Positions 6,587 through 61,329 of a stretch of 64,000 bases of DNA are shown here, piece after piece. Position 1 is the stretch's first letter. Every line of letters begins with the position of its first letter. The stretch lies in assembly GCA_008360975.2 (NCBI GenBank), contig VLJF02000863.1, positions 1-64,000 on the forward strand, in the 5' to 3' direction. The notes under the pieces are model-generated. The model was not told the DNA's origin, did not search any database, and worked only from the letters and a program-made list of their open reading frames with translations. Source of the stretch: Lichenostomus cassidix. Lineage: Eukaryota; Chordata; Aves; Passeriformes; Meliphagidae. The position numbers were made by a program, and so were the translations under genes.

Positions 6587-7259
6587 ATGTTCAACTCGGT
6601 CAGCCTGGGCTCTCTGTGCGCTCCGGGCCGCAAGGATCGCGGCGGCGCTCAGGGCGACTATCCGGACAGGAACCTTTACTTGCCCAGCTGCCCTTACTAC
6701 GTGCCCGAGCTGCCCGCCGTGCCTTCCTTCCTGCCGCAGCCCGCTCGCCACCTGCCCTACCCCTACTCGCCCAGCCTGCCCCGCGAGGTGCCCTACGGGC
6801 TGGAGACCCCCGGCAAGTGGCGCGGGAGCTACGCGGGGTGCTGCGCGGCCGAGGAGCTGCTGCCCGACGTGGCCGTGAAGGGCGACGGGGCGTTCGGGAT
6901 GGGCCACCATCATCATCATCATCATCTTCATCATCATCACCAACAACAGCAGCAACAGCAGCATCACTCTGGAGGATCTTCTTCATCTTCATCCTCCTCC
7001 TCCGCGCAGTTCTACGCGGGGATGAAGAGCGGAGTGTTGCCCCAAGGGTTTGAGAGGTTCTTCGAGGGGCCTGGAGGAGGAGGAGGAGGAGGAGGAGGAG
7101 GAGGAGGAGGAGGAGGAAGCGCGGAGGGATCGGCGGAGAGCTGCGCGCTGGCGGCAGGAGAGCAGCGCAAGGGCGGCGGAGAGGAGGAGGAGGAGGAGGA
7201 GGAGGAAGAGGAGAGCAGAGGGAAGAGGAGCGAGGAGGGAGGCAAGAGCGGCGCGGCGA
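6587..7259 (+). CDS. HOXC11: HOXC11 coding exon 1
   Basis: Encodes residues 1-224 of a predicted 301-residue sequence-specific transcription factor of the posterior (Abd-B) Hox class, which patterns the caudal axis and hindlimb in vertebrates. The start MFNSVSLGSLC and the blocks NLYLPSCPYYVPE, REVPYGLE, GKW and VLPQGFERFF match HOXC11, not HOXA11 or HOXD11. Low-complexity runs are prominent: His/Gln at 107-127, Ser at 131-139, 15 Gly at 163-177 and 11 Glu at 199-209. The 5' splice site GTAGGT at 7260 leaves a phase 1 end (GCG A) that joins exon 2 to read GAAS-APRPRKK, the expected junction. The open frame running on to a stop at 7265 is therefore intronic. Total length is close to human (304). 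The start is chosen by homology. Confidence 0.96.
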
Positions 7260-14607: not shown

Positions 14608-14681
14608 GCACCCCTCGGCCTCGCAAGAAGCTCTGTCCTTACTCCAAATTCCAGATCCGCGAGCTCGAACGGGAGTTTTTC
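14608..14681 (+). pseudogene. HOXC11: Truncated HOXC11 exon 2 copy 1
   Basis: Follows an intact acceptor (TCCCCTCCCCAG ending at 14607) and encodes [22 protein letters not shown], then breaks into array sequence after GGGAGTTTTTC. It covers the N-terminal arm and the start of homeodomain helix 1 only. It carries R-to-L at the KKRC motif. Confidence 0.92.
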
Positions 14682-14932
14682 ATTTATTTCGGATTTTCTG
14701 TCCCTTTTTCTCAACTAAAATCCCCATTTTCGGCTCGTTTATTAACTGATTTATTTAGGATTTTCTGTCCCTTTTCCCCATGCAAACCCCAACAAAAAAT
14801 CCCATTTTCGGGGCACAAATTAATTAATTTATTCGGGATTTTCTCTCCCTTTTCCCCATGCAAACCCCAATTAAATTCCCCATTTTCGGGGCATAAATAA
14901 ATTAATTTTTCCCTAATTTTTCTCCCTCCCAG

Positions 14933-15006
14933 CCACCCCTCGGCCGCGCAAGCAGTTCTGTCCTTACTGCAAATTCCAGATCCGCGAACTTGAACGGGAA
15001 TTTTTC
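14933..15006 (+). pseudogene. HOXC11: Truncated HOXC11 exon 2 copy 2
   Basis: Acceptor TCTCCCTCCCAG ends at 14932. The copy carries KQFC in place of KKRC and a S-to-C change (CPYCKF). It ends at the same GGGAATTTTTC breakpoint as the other copies. Confidence 0.92.
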
Positions 15007-15327
15007 ATTTATCGATTGATTTATTTAGGATTTTCTCTCACTTTTTCTCAACCGAAATCCCCATTTTCGGGGCATTAATTCCTTTATTTATTTCGGATTT
15101 TCTCTCCCTTTTTCCCCATGAAAACCCCAACTGAAATCCCCATTTTTGGCTCATTTATCAATATATTTATTTCGGATTTTCTGACTCTTTTTCTCAACTA
15201 AAATCCCCATTGATTAAATAATTTATTCTGGATTTTCTCTCCTTTTTCCCCATGCAAACACCAATTAAAAATCCCCATTTTCGGCTAATTTCTCCACTAA
15301 TTTTCCCCTAATTTTTCCTCTCCCCAG

Positions 15328-15401
15328 GCGCCCCTCGGCCGCGCAAGCAGCTCTGTCCTTACTCCAAATTCCAGATCCGCGAGCTCGAACGGGAGTTTTT
15401 C
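15328..15401 (+). pseudogene. HOXC11: Truncated HOXC11 exon 2 copy 3
   Basis: Acceptor CCTCTCCCCAG ends at 15327. It reads APRPRKQLCPYSKF and then IRELEREFF before array sequence. The frame stays open for a further stretch of repeat and then reaches a stop. Confidence 0.92.
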
Positions 15402-15683
15402 ATTTATCGATTAATTCATTTAGGATTTAGGATTCATTTCGGATTTTCTGTCCCTTTTTCTCAACTCAAATCCCCATTTTCGGGGCATAAATTAATTTAT
15501 TTATTTCGGATTTTCTCTCCCTTTTCCCCCATGAAAACCCCAACTGAAATCCCCATTTTCGGCTCATATATTAATAAATTTATTTAGGATTTTCTCTCCC
15601 GTTTCCCCATGAAAACAACAACCGATAACTCCAATTTTCGGCTAATCAATTAATTAATTTTCCCCCAATTTTTCCCCTCCCAG

Positions 15684-15758
15684 CCACCCCTCGGCCTCGC
15701 AAGAAGCGCTGCCCTTACTCCAAATTCCAGATCCGCGAGCTCGAGCGGGAATTTTTCC
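15684..15758 (+). pseudogene. HOXC11: Truncated HOXC11 exon 2 copy 4
   Basis: Acceptor TTCCCCTCCCAG ends at 15683. This copy keeps [18 protein letters not shown], so its protein sequence equals the functional exon over the shared part, but a one-base shift (GGAATTTTTCC) at the breakpoint differs from the others. Confidence 0.92.
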
Positions 15759-16102
15759 ATTTATCGATTGATTTCTTTAGGATTTTCTCTCACTTTTCCC
15801 CATGAAAACACCAACTAAAAATCCCCATTTTCGGGACACAAATTAATTTATTTATTTCGGATTTTCTGTCCCTTTTTCTCAACTAAAATCCCCATTTTCG
15901 GCTCGTTGATTAACTGATTTATTTAGGATTTTCTCTCCCTTTTCCCCATGAAAACCCCAACTGAAGTCCCCATTTTCGGCTCATATATTAATTTTTTTAC
16001 TTCGGATTTTCTCTCCCTTTTTCCCCACGCAAACCCCAATTAAATTCCCCATTTTTGTGTCATTAACTAATTAATTTTTTCCTCATTTTCTGCCCTCCCC
16101 AG

Positions 16103-16176
16103 GCGCCCCTCGGCCGCGCAAGAAGCTCTGTCCTTACTCCAAATTCCAGATCCGCGAGCTCGAACGGGAGTTTTTC
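16103..16176 (+). pseudogene. HOXC11: Truncated HOXC11 exon 2 copy 5
   Basis: Acceptor CTGCCCTCCCCAG ends at 16102. It reads [14 protein letters not shown] with IRELEREFF and ends at the common breakpoint. It lies 298 bp upstream of the real exon 2. Confidence 0.92.
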
Positions 16177-16400: not shown

Positions 16401-16633
16401 GCGCCCCTCGGCCTCGCAAGAAGCGCTGTCCTTACTCCAAGTTCCAGATCCGCGAACTCGAACGGGAGTTTTTCTTCAACGTTTACATCAACAAGGAGAA
16501 GCGGCTGCAGCTCTCGCGGATGCTCAACCTCACCGACCGCCAGGTCAAAATCTGGTTCCAAAACCGACGCATGAAGGAGAAAAAACTCAGCAGGGATCGC
16601 CTGCAGTACTTCTCCGGGAATCCCTTGTTGTGA
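16401..16633 (+). CDS. HOXC11: HOXC11 coding exon 2 (homeodomain)
   Basis: Encodes residues 225-301. It completes a serine codon with exon 1, then APRPRKKRC, and contains the full 60-residue homeodomain (about 229-288) with helix 1 [13 protein letters not shown], the turn [19 protein letters not shown] and recognition helix [14 protein letters not shown]. The tail [15 protein letters not shown] is diagnostic of HOXC11. The protein binds TTTAT/TTAC-type posterior Hox sites in the nucleus. No frameshift or missing DNA-contact residue is visible (W, F, N and R of WFQNRR all present). This is the only complete copy among six exon 2-like segments. It ends with TGA at 16631-16633. Confidence 0.98.
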
Positions 16634-47276: not shown

Positions 47277-48849
47277 ATGTCATCATGTGAGGAGCGAGTG
47301 ACATCTTCCTCCTCCTCCTCCTCCTCGCCGCCCTTCCTCCGCGCCCCGCGCAGCGAGCCGCTGGCCATGTTCGCCCAGCCGGGCGACTTCAGCCCCTGCG
47401 CGGCGATGCGCGGCTGCTCCGCGCTCGTCGCCAAGGGCTCCGAGGTGGCTTTGGGCTCCTACCAGCCCTGCGTGGCGCAGCTGGACGCCTGGGGTGACCC
47501 CAAGGGGACATTCCGCGGCCAGCAGCTGCCCGCCTGCTCCTTCCCGGTGAAGGAGGAGAATGTTTGCTGCATGTTCGCCGCGGAAAAAGCGCCGCGAGCC
47601 GCGGGGAGAGCCGCGGGGAGAGCCGAGCGGAGAGCCCCGGAGGGACATCCGGAGGGACACCCGGAGGGACACCAGCAGGGACACCCGCAGGGACACCCGG
47701 AGGGACACCCGCAGGGACATCTGGAGGGACACCCCGAGGGACACCCGGAGGGACCTTCCGCGCTCTTCCCCGCGCCGCTAGCCCAGCCGTGCCTGCCCGA
47801 GCCCGAGCTGCCCGCAGCCGCAGCCGCGGTGTACTTCCGCGCGGGTTACGCGGCGCTGGAGAAGGGGAGGAGTGAGTTCCACGCGGGGCTGGAGCTGGAG
47901 AAGGCGCGGAGCTCCGCGGAATTCCACGCGGGGCTGGAGCTCGATAAAGCGAGGAGTGAATTCCACGCGGGGCTGGAGAAGGGGAGGAGTGAGTTCCACG
48001 CGGGGTTGGAGTTAGACAAAGCGCGGAGCTCCGCGGAATTCCACGCGGGGTTGGAGTTGGAGAAAGCGCGGAGCTCCGCGGATTTCCACTCTGGGCTGGA
48101 GCTCGATAAAACGCGGAGCTCCGCGGATTTCCACGCGGGGTTAGAGTTAGACAAGGCGCGGAGCTCCGCGGATTTCCACGCGGGGTTGGAGCTGGAGAAA
48201 GCGCGGAGTGAGTTCCACGCGGGGTTAGAGAAAACGCGGAGCTCCGCGGATTTCCACGCGGGGTTGGAGTTAGACAAAGCGCGGAGCTCCGCGGAATTCC
48301 ACGCGGGGTTGGAGAAGGCGAGGAGTGAATTCCACGCGGGGTTGGAGTTGGACAAAACGCGGAGCTCCGCGGATTTCCACGCGGGGTTAGAGTTAGACAA
48401 GGCGCGGAGCTCCGCGGATTTCCACGCGGGGTTGGAGTTAGACAAACCACGGAGCTCCGCAGAATTCCACTCTGGGCTGGAGTTAGACAAACCACGGAGC
48501 TCCGCAGAATTCCACTCCGGGTTGGAGTTAGACAAAGCGCGGAGCTCCGCGGATTTCCACTCTGGGCTGGAGTTAGACAAAGCTCGGAGCTCCGCGGATT
48601 TCCACGCGGGAAGGTTCGCGGAGGGGAGGAGCGAGAGGCTCGAGGTCTCTCCTCTTCCTCCTCCTCCTCCTCCTCCTCCTCCTGGTCCCGGCTCCGCGGG
48701 CGCGGCCGGAGCTCCGCGGGAGCTGCGCGGCGCGGAGGTGAAGCGGGAGGAGCTGCGCGGCGCGGCGCGGAGGAGCTCCGCGGGGAAGGAGCGCGGGAGG
48801 AGCTCCGCGGAGGGAAGCGGCAGCGACAACTCGGACTGCGAGGGCAAAG
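47277..48849 (+). CDS. HOXC10: HOXC10 coding exon 1 (repeat-expanded)
   Basis: Encodes residues 1-524 of a predicted 617-residue posterior Hox transcription factor (about 342 in human). The start MSSCEERVTSSS fits the family N terminus (MTCPRNVTPNS). Family blocks retained are EPLA, MRGC, QLDAWGDPK (68-76) and VKEENVCCM (91-99). Two in-frame expansions follow: a Pro-Glu-Gly-His 4-mer (about 121-160) and 17 copies of an 11-15 residue unit FHAGLELDKARSSAE (201-445). After these come a proline run and an acidic/serine end SDNSDCEGK. The 5' splice site GTAGGG at 48850 leaves phase 1 (AAA G). An upstream ATG at 47231 is in another frame and stops after 19 codons (a possible uORF). The N-terminal region normally serves regulation, so the consequences of the expansion are unknown. 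Confidence 0.93.
47639..47756 (+). repeat. HOXC10: 12-bp coding repeat (GGACACCCGGAG) in HOXC10
   Basis: About ten units of GGACACCCGGAG and GGACACCCGCAG encode GHPEG/GHPQG. All units are multiples of 3, so frame is kept. It lies between the VKEENVCCM block and the larger repeat. Confidence 0.92.
47850..48612 (+). repeat. HOXC10: 45-bp coding minisatellite (FHAGLELDKARSS) in HOXC10
   Basis: Seventeen tandem units plus a final FHAG, unit lengths 33, 39 and 45 bp. The DNA core is GGAGCTCCGCGGATTTCCAC with GCGGGGTTGGAGTTAGACAA. Every length difference is a multiple of three and no stop occurs, unlike the noncoding arrays nearby, which points to translation and selection. The unit seems to derive from the family segment around YSALDK. 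Confidence 0.95.
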
Positions 48850-48964
48850 GTAGGGAATTGGTTAATTAATTAATTGATTGATGAATTAATTGGGGTTCAA
48901 TGGTTTAATTAATTGGGGAATGGTTAACGGGGAGCTCGCTGCTGCTGCTGCTGCTGCCTTCGGG

Positions 48965-55974: not shown

Positions 55975-56480
55975 ATTCTCTCCTTTATTCTCCATCGAAA
56001 AAGCATCACAAAAAATCAAAATATATTTAATTTTAGCTCATTTTTAGGCTAAAAAATTAGATTTTTCTCCCCAAACATCTCAACCTCATCTTTCCTTTAT
56101 TCCCCATGGAAAAAACATCACAAAAAATTCAAAATATATTTAATTTCAGATAATTTTTTAGGCTAAAAAATCAGATTTTTCTCCCCAAACCTCCCAGCTT
56201 CATCTCTCCTTTATTCCCCATCGAAAAAATACCAAAAAAAGTCAAAATATATTTAATTTTAGCTCATTTTTTGGGCTAAAAAATTGGATTTTTCTCCCCA
56301 AACCTCCAAACCGCATCTCTCCTTTATCCCCCATGGAAAAAATATCACAAAAAATAAAAATATATTTATTTTCAACCCATTTTTTGGGCTAAAAAATCAG
56401 ATTTTTCTCCCCAAATTCCCAAATCGTTTTTCTCCTTTCCTCTCCCATCACCTCCGCCTGGAAAAAATGTCACAAAATCA
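55975..56480. repeat. About 115-bp tandem repeat, 4-5 copies
   Basis: Copies of CTCCTTTATTCCCCATGGAA, AAAACATCACAAAAAATC, AAAATATATTTAATTTTAGC and GGCTAAAAAATCAGATTTTT. The same blocks (ATCACAAAAA, CAAATATATTTATTTT, TCTCTCCTTTATCCTCCCAT) recur within the exon-copy array downstream, linking the two. Confidence 0.88.
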
Positions 56481-56499: not shown

Positions 56500-57120
56500 C
56501 CTTTTTTTGGGGAAAAAAAAGCCATTTAACCCATTTTTTTCCTAACTAAAAAGCCATTTAATCAATTTTTTGGGGTAAAAAAAGCTATTTAACTAATTTT
56601 TTTCGGGAAAAAATATTGTTTAACTCATTTTTTGGGGTAAAAAATGCCATTTAATCAATTTTTTGGGGTTAAAAAAAGCCATTTTACCCATTATTTGGAG
56701 TAAAAAAAAGCCATTTAATCCATTTTTGGGGGTAAAAATCGCCGTTTAACCAATTTTTGGGGGTAAAAAATGCCATTTAATCAATTTTTTGGGGTAAAAA
56801 ATGCCATTTAATCCGTTTTTTGGGGTAAAAAATGCCATTTAACTAATTTTTGGGGGTAAAAATCGCCGTTTAACCAATTTCTTTGGGATAAAAAATGCCA
56901 TTTAATCAGTTTTTTGGGGTAAAAAATGCCATTTAATCAATTTTTTGGGGGTAAAAAATGCCGTTTAGCTAATTTTTTTGGGGTAAAAAATGCCTTAACC
57001 CATTTTTTGGGGTAAAAAATACCATTTAATCAATTTTTGGGGTAAAAAATGCCATTTAACCCTTTTTTTTCGGGGAGAAATGCCATTTATTCCATTTTTT
57101 GGGGTAAAAAAAAGCCATTT
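56500..57120. repeat. 31-bp minisatellite GCCATTTAATCAATTTTTTG
   Basis: About 19 units of GCCATTTAATCAATTTTTTG plus GGGTAAAAAAT with period 31. The same subunit is embedded in the 175-bp units downstream. Confidence 0.94.
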
Positions 57121-60100
57121 TTGGCTCTCCTGACAGCGGCTGTTTCCCGCAGAGGAGGCGAAGGTCGAGAGCATCAGAAAAAAATCAAAATATATTTATT
57201 TTTAACCTTTTTTTTTCCGGAAATAAAAGCCATTTCCATCCCCAAACCCGCAAACCGTTTCTCTCCTTTATCCTCCCATCATCTCCGCCTCGAAAAAAAG
57301 TCAGAAAAACCAAAAAAATTGCTTTATTTTTAACCCTTTTCTTGCCGGAAAAGGCGGTTTAACCCATTTTTTTTTTCCCCGAAAAAAAAAAGCCATTTCC
57401 CTCAAATTTTTCACCAAAAAAAAATCCATTTAACCCAATTTTTTTCCCCGAAAAAAAAAGCCATTTACCTCAAATTTTTCACCAAAAAAAACCATTTAAC
57501 CCAATTTTTTTGGGGTAAAACCCGCCGATTTCAGCTGTGCAGAGCATCAGAAAAACACAAATATCTTTATTTTTCACCCATTTTTTGGGGGAAAAAAGGC
57601 GTTTCCCTCCCCAAACCCCCAGTCGTGTCTCTCCTTTCTCCTCCCGTCACCTCCGCCTGGAAAAACCACCAAAAATACACAAAAAATAGCTTTATTTTTA
57701 ACTCTTTTCTTGCCGGAAAAAATGGCATTTAACCCTTTTTTTCCCACGAAAAAAAGCCATTTAAACTTAATTTTTTCACAGACAAAAAGCCATTTAACCC
57801 AATTTTTTTGGGGGGAAAAAAGCCATTTTTGGCTCTGCTGACAGCGGCTGTTTCCCCGCAGAGGAGGCGAAGGTCGAGAGCATCAGAAAAACACAAATAT
57901 ATTTATTTTCACCCAAATTTTTTGGGGAAAAAAGCCATTTCCTTCCCAGTCGTGTCTCTCCTTTATCCTCCCATCATCTCCGACTCGAAAAAATGTCAGA
58001 AAACCACAAAAATCTGAATTTTGAACCTTTTTTTGGGGGGAAAAAGGGATTTAATCCTCCGGCCGCTCATTTTTTTGGGGTAAAAAATGCCATTTAACTC
58101 TTTTTTTTGGGGAAAAAAAAGCCATTTAACCCATTTTTTGGGGTAAAAAATGCCATTTAACTCATTTTTTGGGGAAAAAAAAGCCATTTAACTCTTTTTT
58201 ATGGGGAAAAAAAAGCCATTTAACTCATTTTTTTGGGGTAAAAAATGCCATTTAACTCATTTTTTGGGGTAAAAAAGCCATTTTTGGCTCTCCTGACGGC
58301 GGCTGTTTCCCCGCAGAGGAGACTCCGGCCGGGAAACCACAAATTGCTTTCATTTAACCCAAAATTTTCACCAAAAAAAAGCCATTTTTGGGGTAAAAAA
58401 GCCATTTTTGGGGTAAAAAAAGCCATTTTCGGCTCTCCTGACTCCTCGGGCACCCGGAAAACAGAAATAGCTTTAATTTCGCTCTTTTTTTTTGGGGGGA
58501 AAAACCGCGTTTCTCCTTTGCTCCCCCAGGAAAAAAACACACCAAAAATTTTCTTTATTTTTAACCCTTTTCTTGCCGGAAAAAAGCCCCATTTAACCCT
58601 TTTTTTTCCCACGAAAAAAATCCATTTAACCCAATTTTTTCCCCACAAAAAAAAGCCATTTAAACTTAATTTTTTCGCGAAAAAAAAGCCATTTAACCCA
58701 ATTTTTTGGGGGAAAAAAAGCCATTTTTTGGCCCCATCTGACCGCGGCTTTGTTTTCTGCAGAGGAGGTGAAGGCCAAGAGCTCCTCGAGCACCTGGAAA
58801 ACACAAATAGCTTCATTTTTCACCCATTTTTTTGGGGAAAAAAGGCGTTTCCATCCCCAAACCCCCAGTCGTGTCTCTCCTTTCTCCTCTCGTCATCTCC
58901 GCCTGGAAAAACCACAAAAAATACACAAAAAATATCTTTATTTTTAACCCTTTTCTTGCCGGAAAAAATGGCATTTAACCTAATTTTTTCACGAAAAAAC
59001 GCCATTTAAACTTAATTTTTTCACGAAAAAACGCCATTTAAACTTTATTTTTTTGGGGAAAAAAAGCCATTTAACCCAATTTTTTGGGGTAAAAAACCCC
59101 ATTTTCGGCTGTGCTGACCTCGGCTGTTTCCCCGCAGAGGAGACGAAACCCGAGAGCTCAAAAAAACCACAAATAGCTTCATTTTTAACCCTTTACTTTC
59201 CGGAAAAAAAATCCATTTAACCCATTTTTTTGCTGTAAAAACGCCATTTAACCCAATTTTTTGGGGTAAAAAACCCCATTTTCGGTCCCTCTGACCTCGG
59301 CTGTTTCCCCGCCGAGGCGGCTCCGGCTGAGAGCATCAGGAAATCACAAATACCTTTATTTTTAACCCTTTTCTTGCCGGAAAAAAAGCCATTTAACCCA
59401 TTTTTTCGGGGAAAACCCCAATGTTTTTGGGGCTAAAAAACCCCATTTTTAGCTCTCCTGACCTCGGCTGTTTCCCCGCAGAGGACGCTCCGGCCGAGAG
59501 CATCTCGGGAACCTGGAAAACATAAATATCTTCATTTTTAACCCTTTTCTTGCCGTATAAAAAGCCATTTAACCCATTTTTTCGGGGAAAATCCCAATTT
59601 TGGGGGTAAAAAACCCCATTTTTAGCCCCAGCTGACCTCGGCTGTTTCCCCGCAGAGGAGACGAAACCCGAGAGCTCCAGAAAAACACAAATACCTTCAT
59701 TCTTAACCCTTTACTTTCCGGAAAAAAAGCCATGTAACCCATTTTTTTGCTGTAAAAACGCCATTTAACCCAATTTTTTGGGGTAAAAAACCCCATTTTT
59801 AGCCCCAGCTGACCTCGGCTGTTTCCCCGCAGAGGACGCTCGGGCCGGCGGCAGCCCGCCGGGCACGTGGAAAACAAATAGCTTCATTTTTAACCCTTTT
59901 CTTTCCGGAAAATAATGCATTTTAGCCAATTTTTTAGGGGAAAAAACACGATTTAACCCAATTTTTTTGGGTAAAAAAGCCCCATTTTTGGTCCCTCTGA
60001 CCTCGGCTGTTTCCCCGCAGAGGACGCTCCGGCCGAGAGCATCTCGGGAACCTGGAAAACACAAATAGCTTCATTTTTAACCCTTTACTTGCCGGATAAA

Positions 60101-61048
60101 AAGCCATTTAACCCATTTTTTCGGGGAAAACCCCAATTTTTTTGGGCTAAAAAACCCCATTTTTAGCTCTCCTGACCTCGGCTGTTTCCCCGCAGAGGAG
60201 GCTCCGGCCGGCAGCTCCAGAAAAGCACAAATACCTTCATTCTTAACCCTTTTCTTGCCGGAAAAAGAGCCGTTAAACCCATTTTTTTGCTGTAAAAACA
60301 CCATTTAACCCAATTTTTTCGGGTAAAAAATCCCCATTTTCGGCTCTGCTGACCTCGGCTGTTTCCCCGCAGAGGACGCTCGGGCCGGCAGCTCCTCGGG
60401 CACCTGGAAAACACAAATAGCTTCATTTTTAACCCTTTACTTTCCGGAAAAAAAGCAATTTTTTCAGGGAAAACCCCAATTTTTTTGGGCTAAAAACCCC
60501 ATTTTCGGTCCCTCTGACCTCGGCTGTTTCCCCGCAGAGGAGGCTCCGGCCGGGAGAATCAGGAAACCACAAATACCTTTATTTTTAACCCTTTTCTTGC
60601 CGGATAAAAAGCCATTTAACCCATTTTTTTGCTGTAGAAGCGCCTTTTAACCCAAATTTTTGGGGTAAAAAACCCCATTTTCGGTCCCTCTGACCTCGGC
60701 TGTTTCCCCGCAGAGGAGGCTCCGGCCGAGAGCATCTCGGGCACCTGGAAAACATAAATATCTTCATTTTTAACCCTTTACTTTCCGGAAAAAATGCAAT
60801 TTTTTCGGGGAAAACCCCAATTTTTTTTGGGCTAAAAACCCCCATTTTCGGTCCCTCTGACCTCGGCTGTTTCCCCGCAGAGGACGCTCGGGCCGGCGGC
60901 AGCCCGCCGGGCACGTGGAAAACACAAATAGCTTCATTTTTAACCCTTTACTTTCCGGAAAAAAAGCCATTTTTTCGGGGAAAACCCCAATTTTTTGGGC
61001 TAAAAAACCCCATTTTTAGCTCTCCTGACCTCGGCTGTTTCCCCGCAG
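57121..61048 (+). repeat. HOXC10: Tandem array carrying copies of the HOXC10 exon 2 splice acceptor
   Basis: About 15 copies of CTGACCTCGGCTGTTTCCCC-GCAG followed by up to 38 nt of exon 2, starting at 57153, 57862, 58317, 58763, 59138, 59316, 59482, 59656, 59833, 60021, 60196, 60373, 60538, 60714 and 60881; partial ones lie near 57541 and 58450. Spacing falls from about 450-700 bp to a regular 165-190 bp after 59138. The rest of each unit is AACACAAATAGCTTCATTTT, TAACCCTTTTCTTGCCGG and 31-bp subunits. The copy at 59316 has a damaged acceptor (GCCGAG). Copies at 59833 and 60881 are identical to the real exon over the shared 38 nt. Confidence 0.95.
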
Positions 61049-61329
61049 AGGACGCTCGGGCCGGCGGCAGCCCGCCGGGCACGTGGCTGACGGCGCGCAG
61101 CGGCCGCAAGAAGCGCTGCCCTTACAGCAAACACCAAACGCTGGAGTTGGAGAAGGAGTTCCTGTTCAACATGTACCTGACCCGCGAGCGCCGCCTGGAG
61201 ATCAGCCGCAGCATCAACCTCACCGACCGCCAGGTCAAGATCTGGTTCCAAAACCGCCGCATGAAGCTCAAGAAGATGAACAGGGAGAACCGGATCCGAG
61301 AGCTGACGTCGGGTTTTAGTTTTACTTGA
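61049..61329 (+). CDS. HOXC10: HOXC10 coding exon 2 (homeodomain)
   Basis: Encodes residues 525-617. The first 12 residues ([12 protein letters not shown]) differ from the family's EEIKAENTTGN and coincide with the segment copied in the upstream array. From [13 protein letters not shown] on, the sequence is typical Hox10: the Trp thought to mediate PBX contact (537), homeodomain about 543-602 with recognition helix [14 protein letters not shown], and tail [17 protein letters not shown]. Hox10 proteins act in the nucleus and specify lumbar identity. The DNA-contacting residues are intact. Divergence is confined to N-to-T before Trp and a few conservative changes (ISRSIN, SGFSFT). The acceptor CCCCGCAG ends at 61048; stop TGA at 61327-61329. 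This is the only complete copy of the exon in the window. Confidence 0.98.

Follow-up and report, generated by a model that had tools for sequence, protein, structure and literature searches.

Exon stuttering in a songbird HOXC10 gene: fifteen copies of the exon 2 splice acceptor in intron 1, probably captured repeatedly from the functional exon

Why does the first intron of a HOX gene carry many copies of the splice acceptor of its own second exon? HOXC10 of the songbird Lichenostomus cassidix raises this question. The gene lies on contig VLJF02000863.1, of which positions 1 to 64,000 were analysed. This whole stretch of 64,000 nt is called the window, and the gene calls and the coverage by tandem repeats (Tandem Repeats Finder, TRF) were computed across all of it. 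A preliminary description had counted about 15 copies of the exon 2 acceptor ahead of the functional HOXC10 exon; we found 15, from 57153 to 60881, in intron 1 upstream of the functional site at 61049. Judging from the sequence of the locus, it is highly probable that this array is exon stuttering in a songbird HOXC10, with repeated capture of the exon edge and with decoys that have no selected role and are mostly silent. The gene was identified by its Hox10-type homeodomain exon, its HOXC10-like exon 1 and the presence of HOXC11 upstream on the same strand, so that the name and the phase 1 junction given earlier were borne out. The donor had been placed at 48850; the GT does start there, and the last base of exon 1 is 48849. 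In the full-length search, bird HOXC10 was among the best matches, and the top-scoring rows were fused multi-homeodomain models. Among the best 120 of 634 matches, none covered the predicted HOXC10 in full, the best local coverage being 28% of the query. The features of HOXC10 are listed below, with the first exon base of each acceptor copy in brackets.

47277..48849, + strand, HOXC10 exon 1 (coding); start Met inferred from the frame, donor GT begins at 48850
55977..56422, + strand, 113-bp intronic minisatellite, related (74–79%) to the spacers of the distal array
56503..57120, + strand, 31-bp intronic minisatellite, directly upstream of the array
57128..57176, + strand, acceptor copy 1 (57153), truncated exon piece
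57837..57885, + strand, acceptor copy 2 (57862), truncated
58292..58332, + strand, acceptor copy 3 (58317), about 16 nt of exon
58430..58457 (approximate), + strand, relic unit found by eye, branch-point region and exon end without polypyrimidine tract and AG
58738..58797, + strand, acceptor copy 4 (58763), exon piece to TGG, EEVKAKSSSSTW
59113..59159, + strand, acceptor copy 5 (59138), truncated
59290..59338, + strand, acceptor copy 6 (59315), AG lost (CG), truncated
59457..59516, + strand, acceptor copy 7 (59482), exon piece to TGG
59631..59679, + strand, acceptor copy 8 (59656), truncated
59808..59870, + strand, acceptor copy 9 (59833), 38 nt of exon identical to the functional exon
59996..60055, + strand, acceptor copy 10 (60021), exon piece to TGG
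60171..60219, + strand, acceptor copy 11 (60196), truncated
60348..60407, + strand, acceptor copy 12 (60373), exon piece to TGG
60513..60561, + strand, acceptor copy 13 (60538), truncated
60689..60748, + strand, acceptor copy 14 (60714), exon piece to TGG
60856..60918, + strand, acceptor copy 15 (60881), 38 nt of exon identical, in-frame read-through into exon 2
61049..61329, + strand, functional HOXC10 exon 2 with the homeodomain; stop codon included

A full copy consists of CTGAC at the branch-point position, a polypyrimidine tract, CAG and 35–38 nt of exon ending in TGG. As read from the sequence, the A of CTGAC, a motif resembling the branch-point consensus, is 21 nt ahead of the exon. The sequence CCCCGCAG is exact in 12 of the 15 copies (the exceptions are 57153, 58763 and 59315), and the AG is kept in 14; copy 59315 reads CCCCGCCG, in which it is replaced by CG. 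The preliminary description extended the exon piece of each unit to TGG, with a length of up to 38 nt. This holds for seven copies (35 or 38 nt), and the remaining eight end at about 16–24 nt. When the exon was compared with its own intron by BLAST, copies 59833 and 60881 matched exon bases 1–38 at 100%. They are the two confident hits above 42.1 bits, the published-style threshold for exon-to-intron hits, and the other 13 copies fall below it. No match reached this score in five shuffled HOXC10 introns, and chance was rejected as the origin of the copies.

The array is about 4 kb long, with spacings from copy to copy and finally to the functional exon of 709, 455, 446, 375, 177, 167, 174, 177, 188, 175, 177, 165, 176, 167 and 168 nt. 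The unit length of mostly 165–190 bp that had been reported fits 11 of these 15 spacings; the four distal ones are 375–709. Given those distal spacings, the near-nucleosomal period that had been pointed out looks incidental, and on the spacing evidence a nucleosome-phasing function of the array is unsupported. The acceptors had also been called near-identical. This is correct for ten of the 11 proximal copies (59138–60881), in which 28 or 29 of the 29 bases from −25 to +4 are as in the functional site, and copy 59482 equals it across all 35 bases from −30 to +5. The four distal copies match it at 15–27 of 29 bases in an ungapped count, two of them being lowered by a one-base shift. Local acceptor signals, as far as these bases tell, hardly separate the proximal decoys from the real site, and therefore the discriminating signal must lie elsewhere.

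Exon or sequence stuttering was described in chicken in 2026 (PMC12954441): the edge of an exon, together with its splice site, is expanded into the intron next to it. That paper counts 236 introns showing exon stuttering, of which 190 lie on dot chromosomes, and gives an exon part of 20–187 bp (median 36), 1–44 copies and a median span of 1,751 bp; variation of intron length between individuals is a published trait. With 15 copies and an exon part of 38 bp, the HOXC10 array is within these ranges, and like the chicken cases it consists of imperfect tandem copies of an exon edge and its splice site in the adjacent intron. The copies include the acceptor and take up the exon from its base 1, they are local to the neighbouring intron in the window searched, and the introns are filled with tandem repeats (TRF). 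In the chicken account, repeat blocks were not seen entering exons and coding regions were intact. HOXC10 differs in this respect: its exon 1 contains a coding minisatellite, and its exon 2 edge apparently recombines with the array, two copies of which have the same 38 nt. The songbird host, the HOX genes and the AT-rich spacers are further differences. The term HOX has no occurrence in the main text of PMC12954441 (its gene list is a supplement, outside this count), and the stuttering terms are found in no other paper of the open-access literature searched. Thus, the HOXC10 array is in all probability a new case of exon stuttering, the new element being two HOXC genes of a songbird.

Other known systems are less similar. 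Like the units of an ordinary intronic minisatellite (variable number tandem repeat), the HOXC10 units are head-to-tail, imperfect and recombining, but every unit contains a complete acceptor together with coding sequence from the exon next to it. In tandem exon duplication with mutually exclusive exons, repeated exon-derived sequence also stands ahead of an exon, as it does ahead of HOXC10 exon 2. Unlike in that system, the HOXC10 copies are the 5′ exon edge only, their frames stop or run on, and there is no complete exon copy. We take HOXC to be located on chicken chromosome 33. This chromosome resembles the dot chromosomes, although the available text of PMC9974502 does not class it among them. 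GC-rich "hidden" bird genes evolve fast, have segments rich in G, A, R and P and lie in repeat-rich regions (PMC8449477), and HOXC10 has such fast-changing segments; in the part of that source available to us "hox" does not occur and exon-edge arrays are not mentioned.

The origin of the copies was assessed from the variation among the 12 proximal units, the functional one included, after columns with more than three gaps were dropped. Only three of 29 columns vary in the splice module (−25 to +4) versus 16 of 20 in the exon from +5 to +24 (Fisher p 1e-6); in the rest of the intron part of the units 41 of 107 columns vary, and the mean column identity is 0.67–0.96 depending on the segment. A constant splice module combined with variable linker codons suggests that the copies were captured repeatedly from a functional exon with a fast-evolving linker. 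The module would be constant because the functional site is under selection, and the linker codons would differ between copies because the linker evolves fast in songbirds. An ancestral-type Lys at residue 4 (EDIKAENTTGNW) is found in four of the five most distal copies and in one of the ten others (Fisher p 0.017). The GC content of the first 24 nt increases toward the exon (rho 0.68, 15 copies, the truncated ones including some intron). Both gradients are as expected if the distal copies are older, so the array may preserve, in shuffled order, former versions of the exon edge.

The second exon of HOXC11 also stutters. The features of this gene are as follows.

6587-7259, + strand, HOXC11 exon 1; start codon and donor inferred from the frame
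14608..16176, + strand, HOXC11 acceptor copies (exon bases 14608, 14933, 15328, 15684, 16103), each with about 74 nt of exon 2 (homeobox)
16401..16633, + strand, HOXC11 functional exon 2; stop codon included

All five upstream copies have the AG. The exon matches its own intron five times at 77.8–117 bits, the shuffle control having been made with the HOXC10 intron only. The homeodomain is in the second exon of both genes (Pfam); the HOXC11 copies encode a piece of it, and none of the five encodes it completely. Their mean pairwise identity is 0.92, and seven of 13 distinct changes are synonymous versus 22–28% expected (p 0.014–0.045). All five have AAA where the functional HOXC11 exon has AAG. 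HOXC10 exon 2 itself has no match in the intergenic stretch (only this window was searched). Its sole match in the HOXC11 intron, 21 nt of homeobox at 15698-15718 (42.1 bits), arises because a HOXC11 homeobox copy lies there. The variation patterns of both genes follow from repeated copying out of functional exons under their usual selection, while a single ancient capture followed by neutral decay predicts neither. The HOXC11 array also bears on the question of whether an assembler multiplied or misjoined a few real copies. The window is highly repetitive (77% tandem repeat by TRF), as this explanation would have it. However, the units differ mutually at many sites, the array spans only about 4 kb, HOXC11 has the same structure in a separate intron, and the chicken PHF8 case was verified with raw nanopore reads according to the available text of PMC12954441. 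An artefact is unlikely for the HOXC10 array, and as an account of the locus we give it a minimal chance.

Exchange among the units was assessed by a four-gamete test, which 24 of 25 pairs of an upstream and an exon site failed (11 units; 59138 was left out). The stretch of the functional unit just upstream of its acceptor is like 59482 and 60196, and its exon edge equals 59833 and 60881 over 38 nt. Run tests of this unit against four parent pairs gave p values of 0.002, 0.003, 0.008 and 0.055, uncorrected. The functional unit thus looks like an apparent mosaic of array units, and exchange has probably reached to within about 40 bp of a functional splice site. By this account, the functional exon edge would itself have exchanged sequence with the array.

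Several results weigh against repeated capture and exchange with the exon. The p values overstate independence, the units being related and recombining. At residue 2, nine of the 15 copies have Glu whereas the functional exon shares Asp with the outgroup, contrary to a simple distal-is-older order; nor is the order clean, since a unit seven positions further upstream, 59833, also matches the functional edge. All 11 units queried reach the smallest possible p (indel columns counted), so mosaicism is not special to the functional unit. When this unit is left out, conflict remains in 22 of the 25 site pairs; only in two of the 24 conflicting pairs is a gamete carried by this unit alone. Because of this general mosaicism, most exchange may be between copies. 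The constant core could reflect conversion centred on the GC-rich core. One proximal query (59640-59740) found nothing in the 113-bp repeat, the array contains no G-quadruplex motif (the whole window has 42 on the + strand and 32 on the − strand), and a unit folds only weakly better than shuffles (z −1.83 as DNA, −1.42 as RNA). The direction of copying, the splicing outcome and polymorphism are inferred from the sequence of one individual. The 22 of 25 and two of 24 counts would favour a different history, in which one exon edge was captured long ago and multiplied like a minisatellite with no exchange, the 38-nt identity being one recent duplication out of the exon. This history is rather improbable: variation is far greater in the copied codons than in the splice module next to them, and two separate copies, not one, are identical to the functional edge.

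How could repeated capture proceed? Three of four array queries are 74–79% identical to the nearby 113-bp minisatellite, from which the spacers of the distal half derive. Copies may have been taken repeatedly from the functional exon, with local recombination or template switching enlarging the array, possibly at the short microhomologies TGG and ATCA. The unit junctions lie at these motifs (3–4 nt); this is consistent with template switching, yet they are short enough to occur by chance. As causes, G-quadruplexes inside the array were rejected for want of a motif there, and folding of a unit was set aside on its weak z-scores.

The consequences of decoy splicing can be predicted from the frames. 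With a phase 1 junction to exon 1, the frames of 14 of the 15 copies reach a stop without a homeodomain. The stop comes after 13–92 residues and not after about 10–40 as first estimated. The loss of the homeodomain, expected earlier for all decoys, does not apply to 60881, from which 168 nt (56 codons) are open in frame into the real exon and the homeodomain is kept. Selection for this read-through need not be assumed, since 23% of shuffles stay open and seven of the 15 spacings are multiples of three. Stops in the terminal exon should let transcripts escape exon-junction-dependent decay, and therefore this decay should not remove the decoy transcripts. Donor-like GTA-type sites are present, as unscored motifs, in ten of 15 units (none in 59315, 60021, 60373, 60714 and 60881), so the decoys may also serve as cassette exons. 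The likeliest outcome is mostly silent decoys with low-level use. Most transcripts would use 61049, because exon 2 is terminal and has a nearby poly(A) site and the signals of the complete exon. A decoy transcript could yield a little homeodomain-less protein, and a 60881 transcript could give a protein that has the homeodomain and is 56 residues longer. Both proposals of the preliminary description, isoforms lacking the homeodomain and recognition of the real site by exonic signals, are possible.

It might be supposed that the acceptors are instead kept for use, so that the homeodomain-less isoforms or the 56-residue-longer form from 60881 tune HOX dosage. The proximal splice module is nearly constant while other columns vary, the AG is kept in 14 of 15 copies, the frames end in the terminal exon or read through, and a homeodomain-less HOX message is known elsewhere, the HOXB9 variant (PMC7040399). 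However, constancy is equally expected when copies come from a selected functional site, the AG of 59315 is lost, several exon pieces are truncated, and HOXC11 has the same kind of array. Regulated decoys are therefore very improbable.

The introns and the intergenic stretch of the window have a GC content of 0.33–0.38 versus 0.55–0.67 in the exons, and a tandem repeat share of 74–84% (74% in HOXC10 intron 1 and 84% in HOXC11 intron 1). The HOXC11–HOXC10 intergenic stretch (16633-47276) comprises 30.6 kb, 79% of it tandem repeat, with a GC content of 0.325. No Rfam match reached the gathering score across the whole window. HOXC11 exon 1 (6587-7259) has runs of His, Gln, Ser, Gly and Glu. HOXC10 exon 1 has a 12-bp coding repeat of about ten copies (47636-47754, EGHP type) and the coding minisatellite at 47877-48617, with 17 units of 33, 39 or 45 nt and a partial one. 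Every unit of this minisatellite is in frame (FHAGLELDKARSSAD type). In the 12 full 45-nt units, 4, 0 and 8 of 15 columns vary at the three codon positions, a pattern that is, on this comparison, a coding signature.

Protein comparison concerns the same codons that stutter. Among 13 proteins fetched, 11 read EDIKAENTTGNWLTAKSGRKKR, five of them from birds (manakins, cormorant, sandgrouse, rhea); one monkey protein reads EEIKAEN and one (P0016) is not a HOXC10. In this set, HOXC10 outside songbirds is nearly invariant. The closest exon 2 among the matches listed is a wallcreeper HXC10 fragment (P0146; 95% over 88%). We read 15 proteins from the best 120 listed; several of the songbird fragments are labelled Hox-D10 or D9-like at source, and their HOXC10 label is our own reading. 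ARSGRKKR and SRSIAL are common to seven fragments, from Tichodroma, Parus, Cyanoderma, Ficedula, Motacilla, Sturnus and Certhia, which we take to be songbird genera; the Lonchura fragment resembles Hox9. The HOXC10 of the window has ARSG and SRSI like these fragments, but retains SINL. On these protein comparisons the sequence fits best in an oscine songbird. Its Trp aligns with the Trp of the solved HOXA9 chain (1puf), presumably the PBX-contacting residue. The residues before TW differ among the songbird fragments in sequence and in predicted-model length (12 in Tichodroma, 22 in Ficedula), and this variable stretch is the one copied in the array.

The stuttering codons of HOXC10 exon 2 are thus the ones that vary between songbirds, and the chicken cases are reported as coding-intact in the available text of PMC12954441. 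It is conceivable, although we regard it as doubtful, that the array is both an archive and a workshop, in which successive versions of the linker ahead of the homeodomain, with its Trp, are captured, diversified free of constraint and returned by conversion, so that HOXC10 evolves fast at the stuttering codons. The array is also a natural experiment on exon definition, in which one acceptor is chosen among near-identical ones with the homeodomain at stake. The case of HOXC10 and HOXC11 makes it testable whether intron repeats rewrite exon edges. If the archive-and-workshop reading were true, an essential and otherwise nearly invariant developmental regulator would be rewritten by an intronic repeat.

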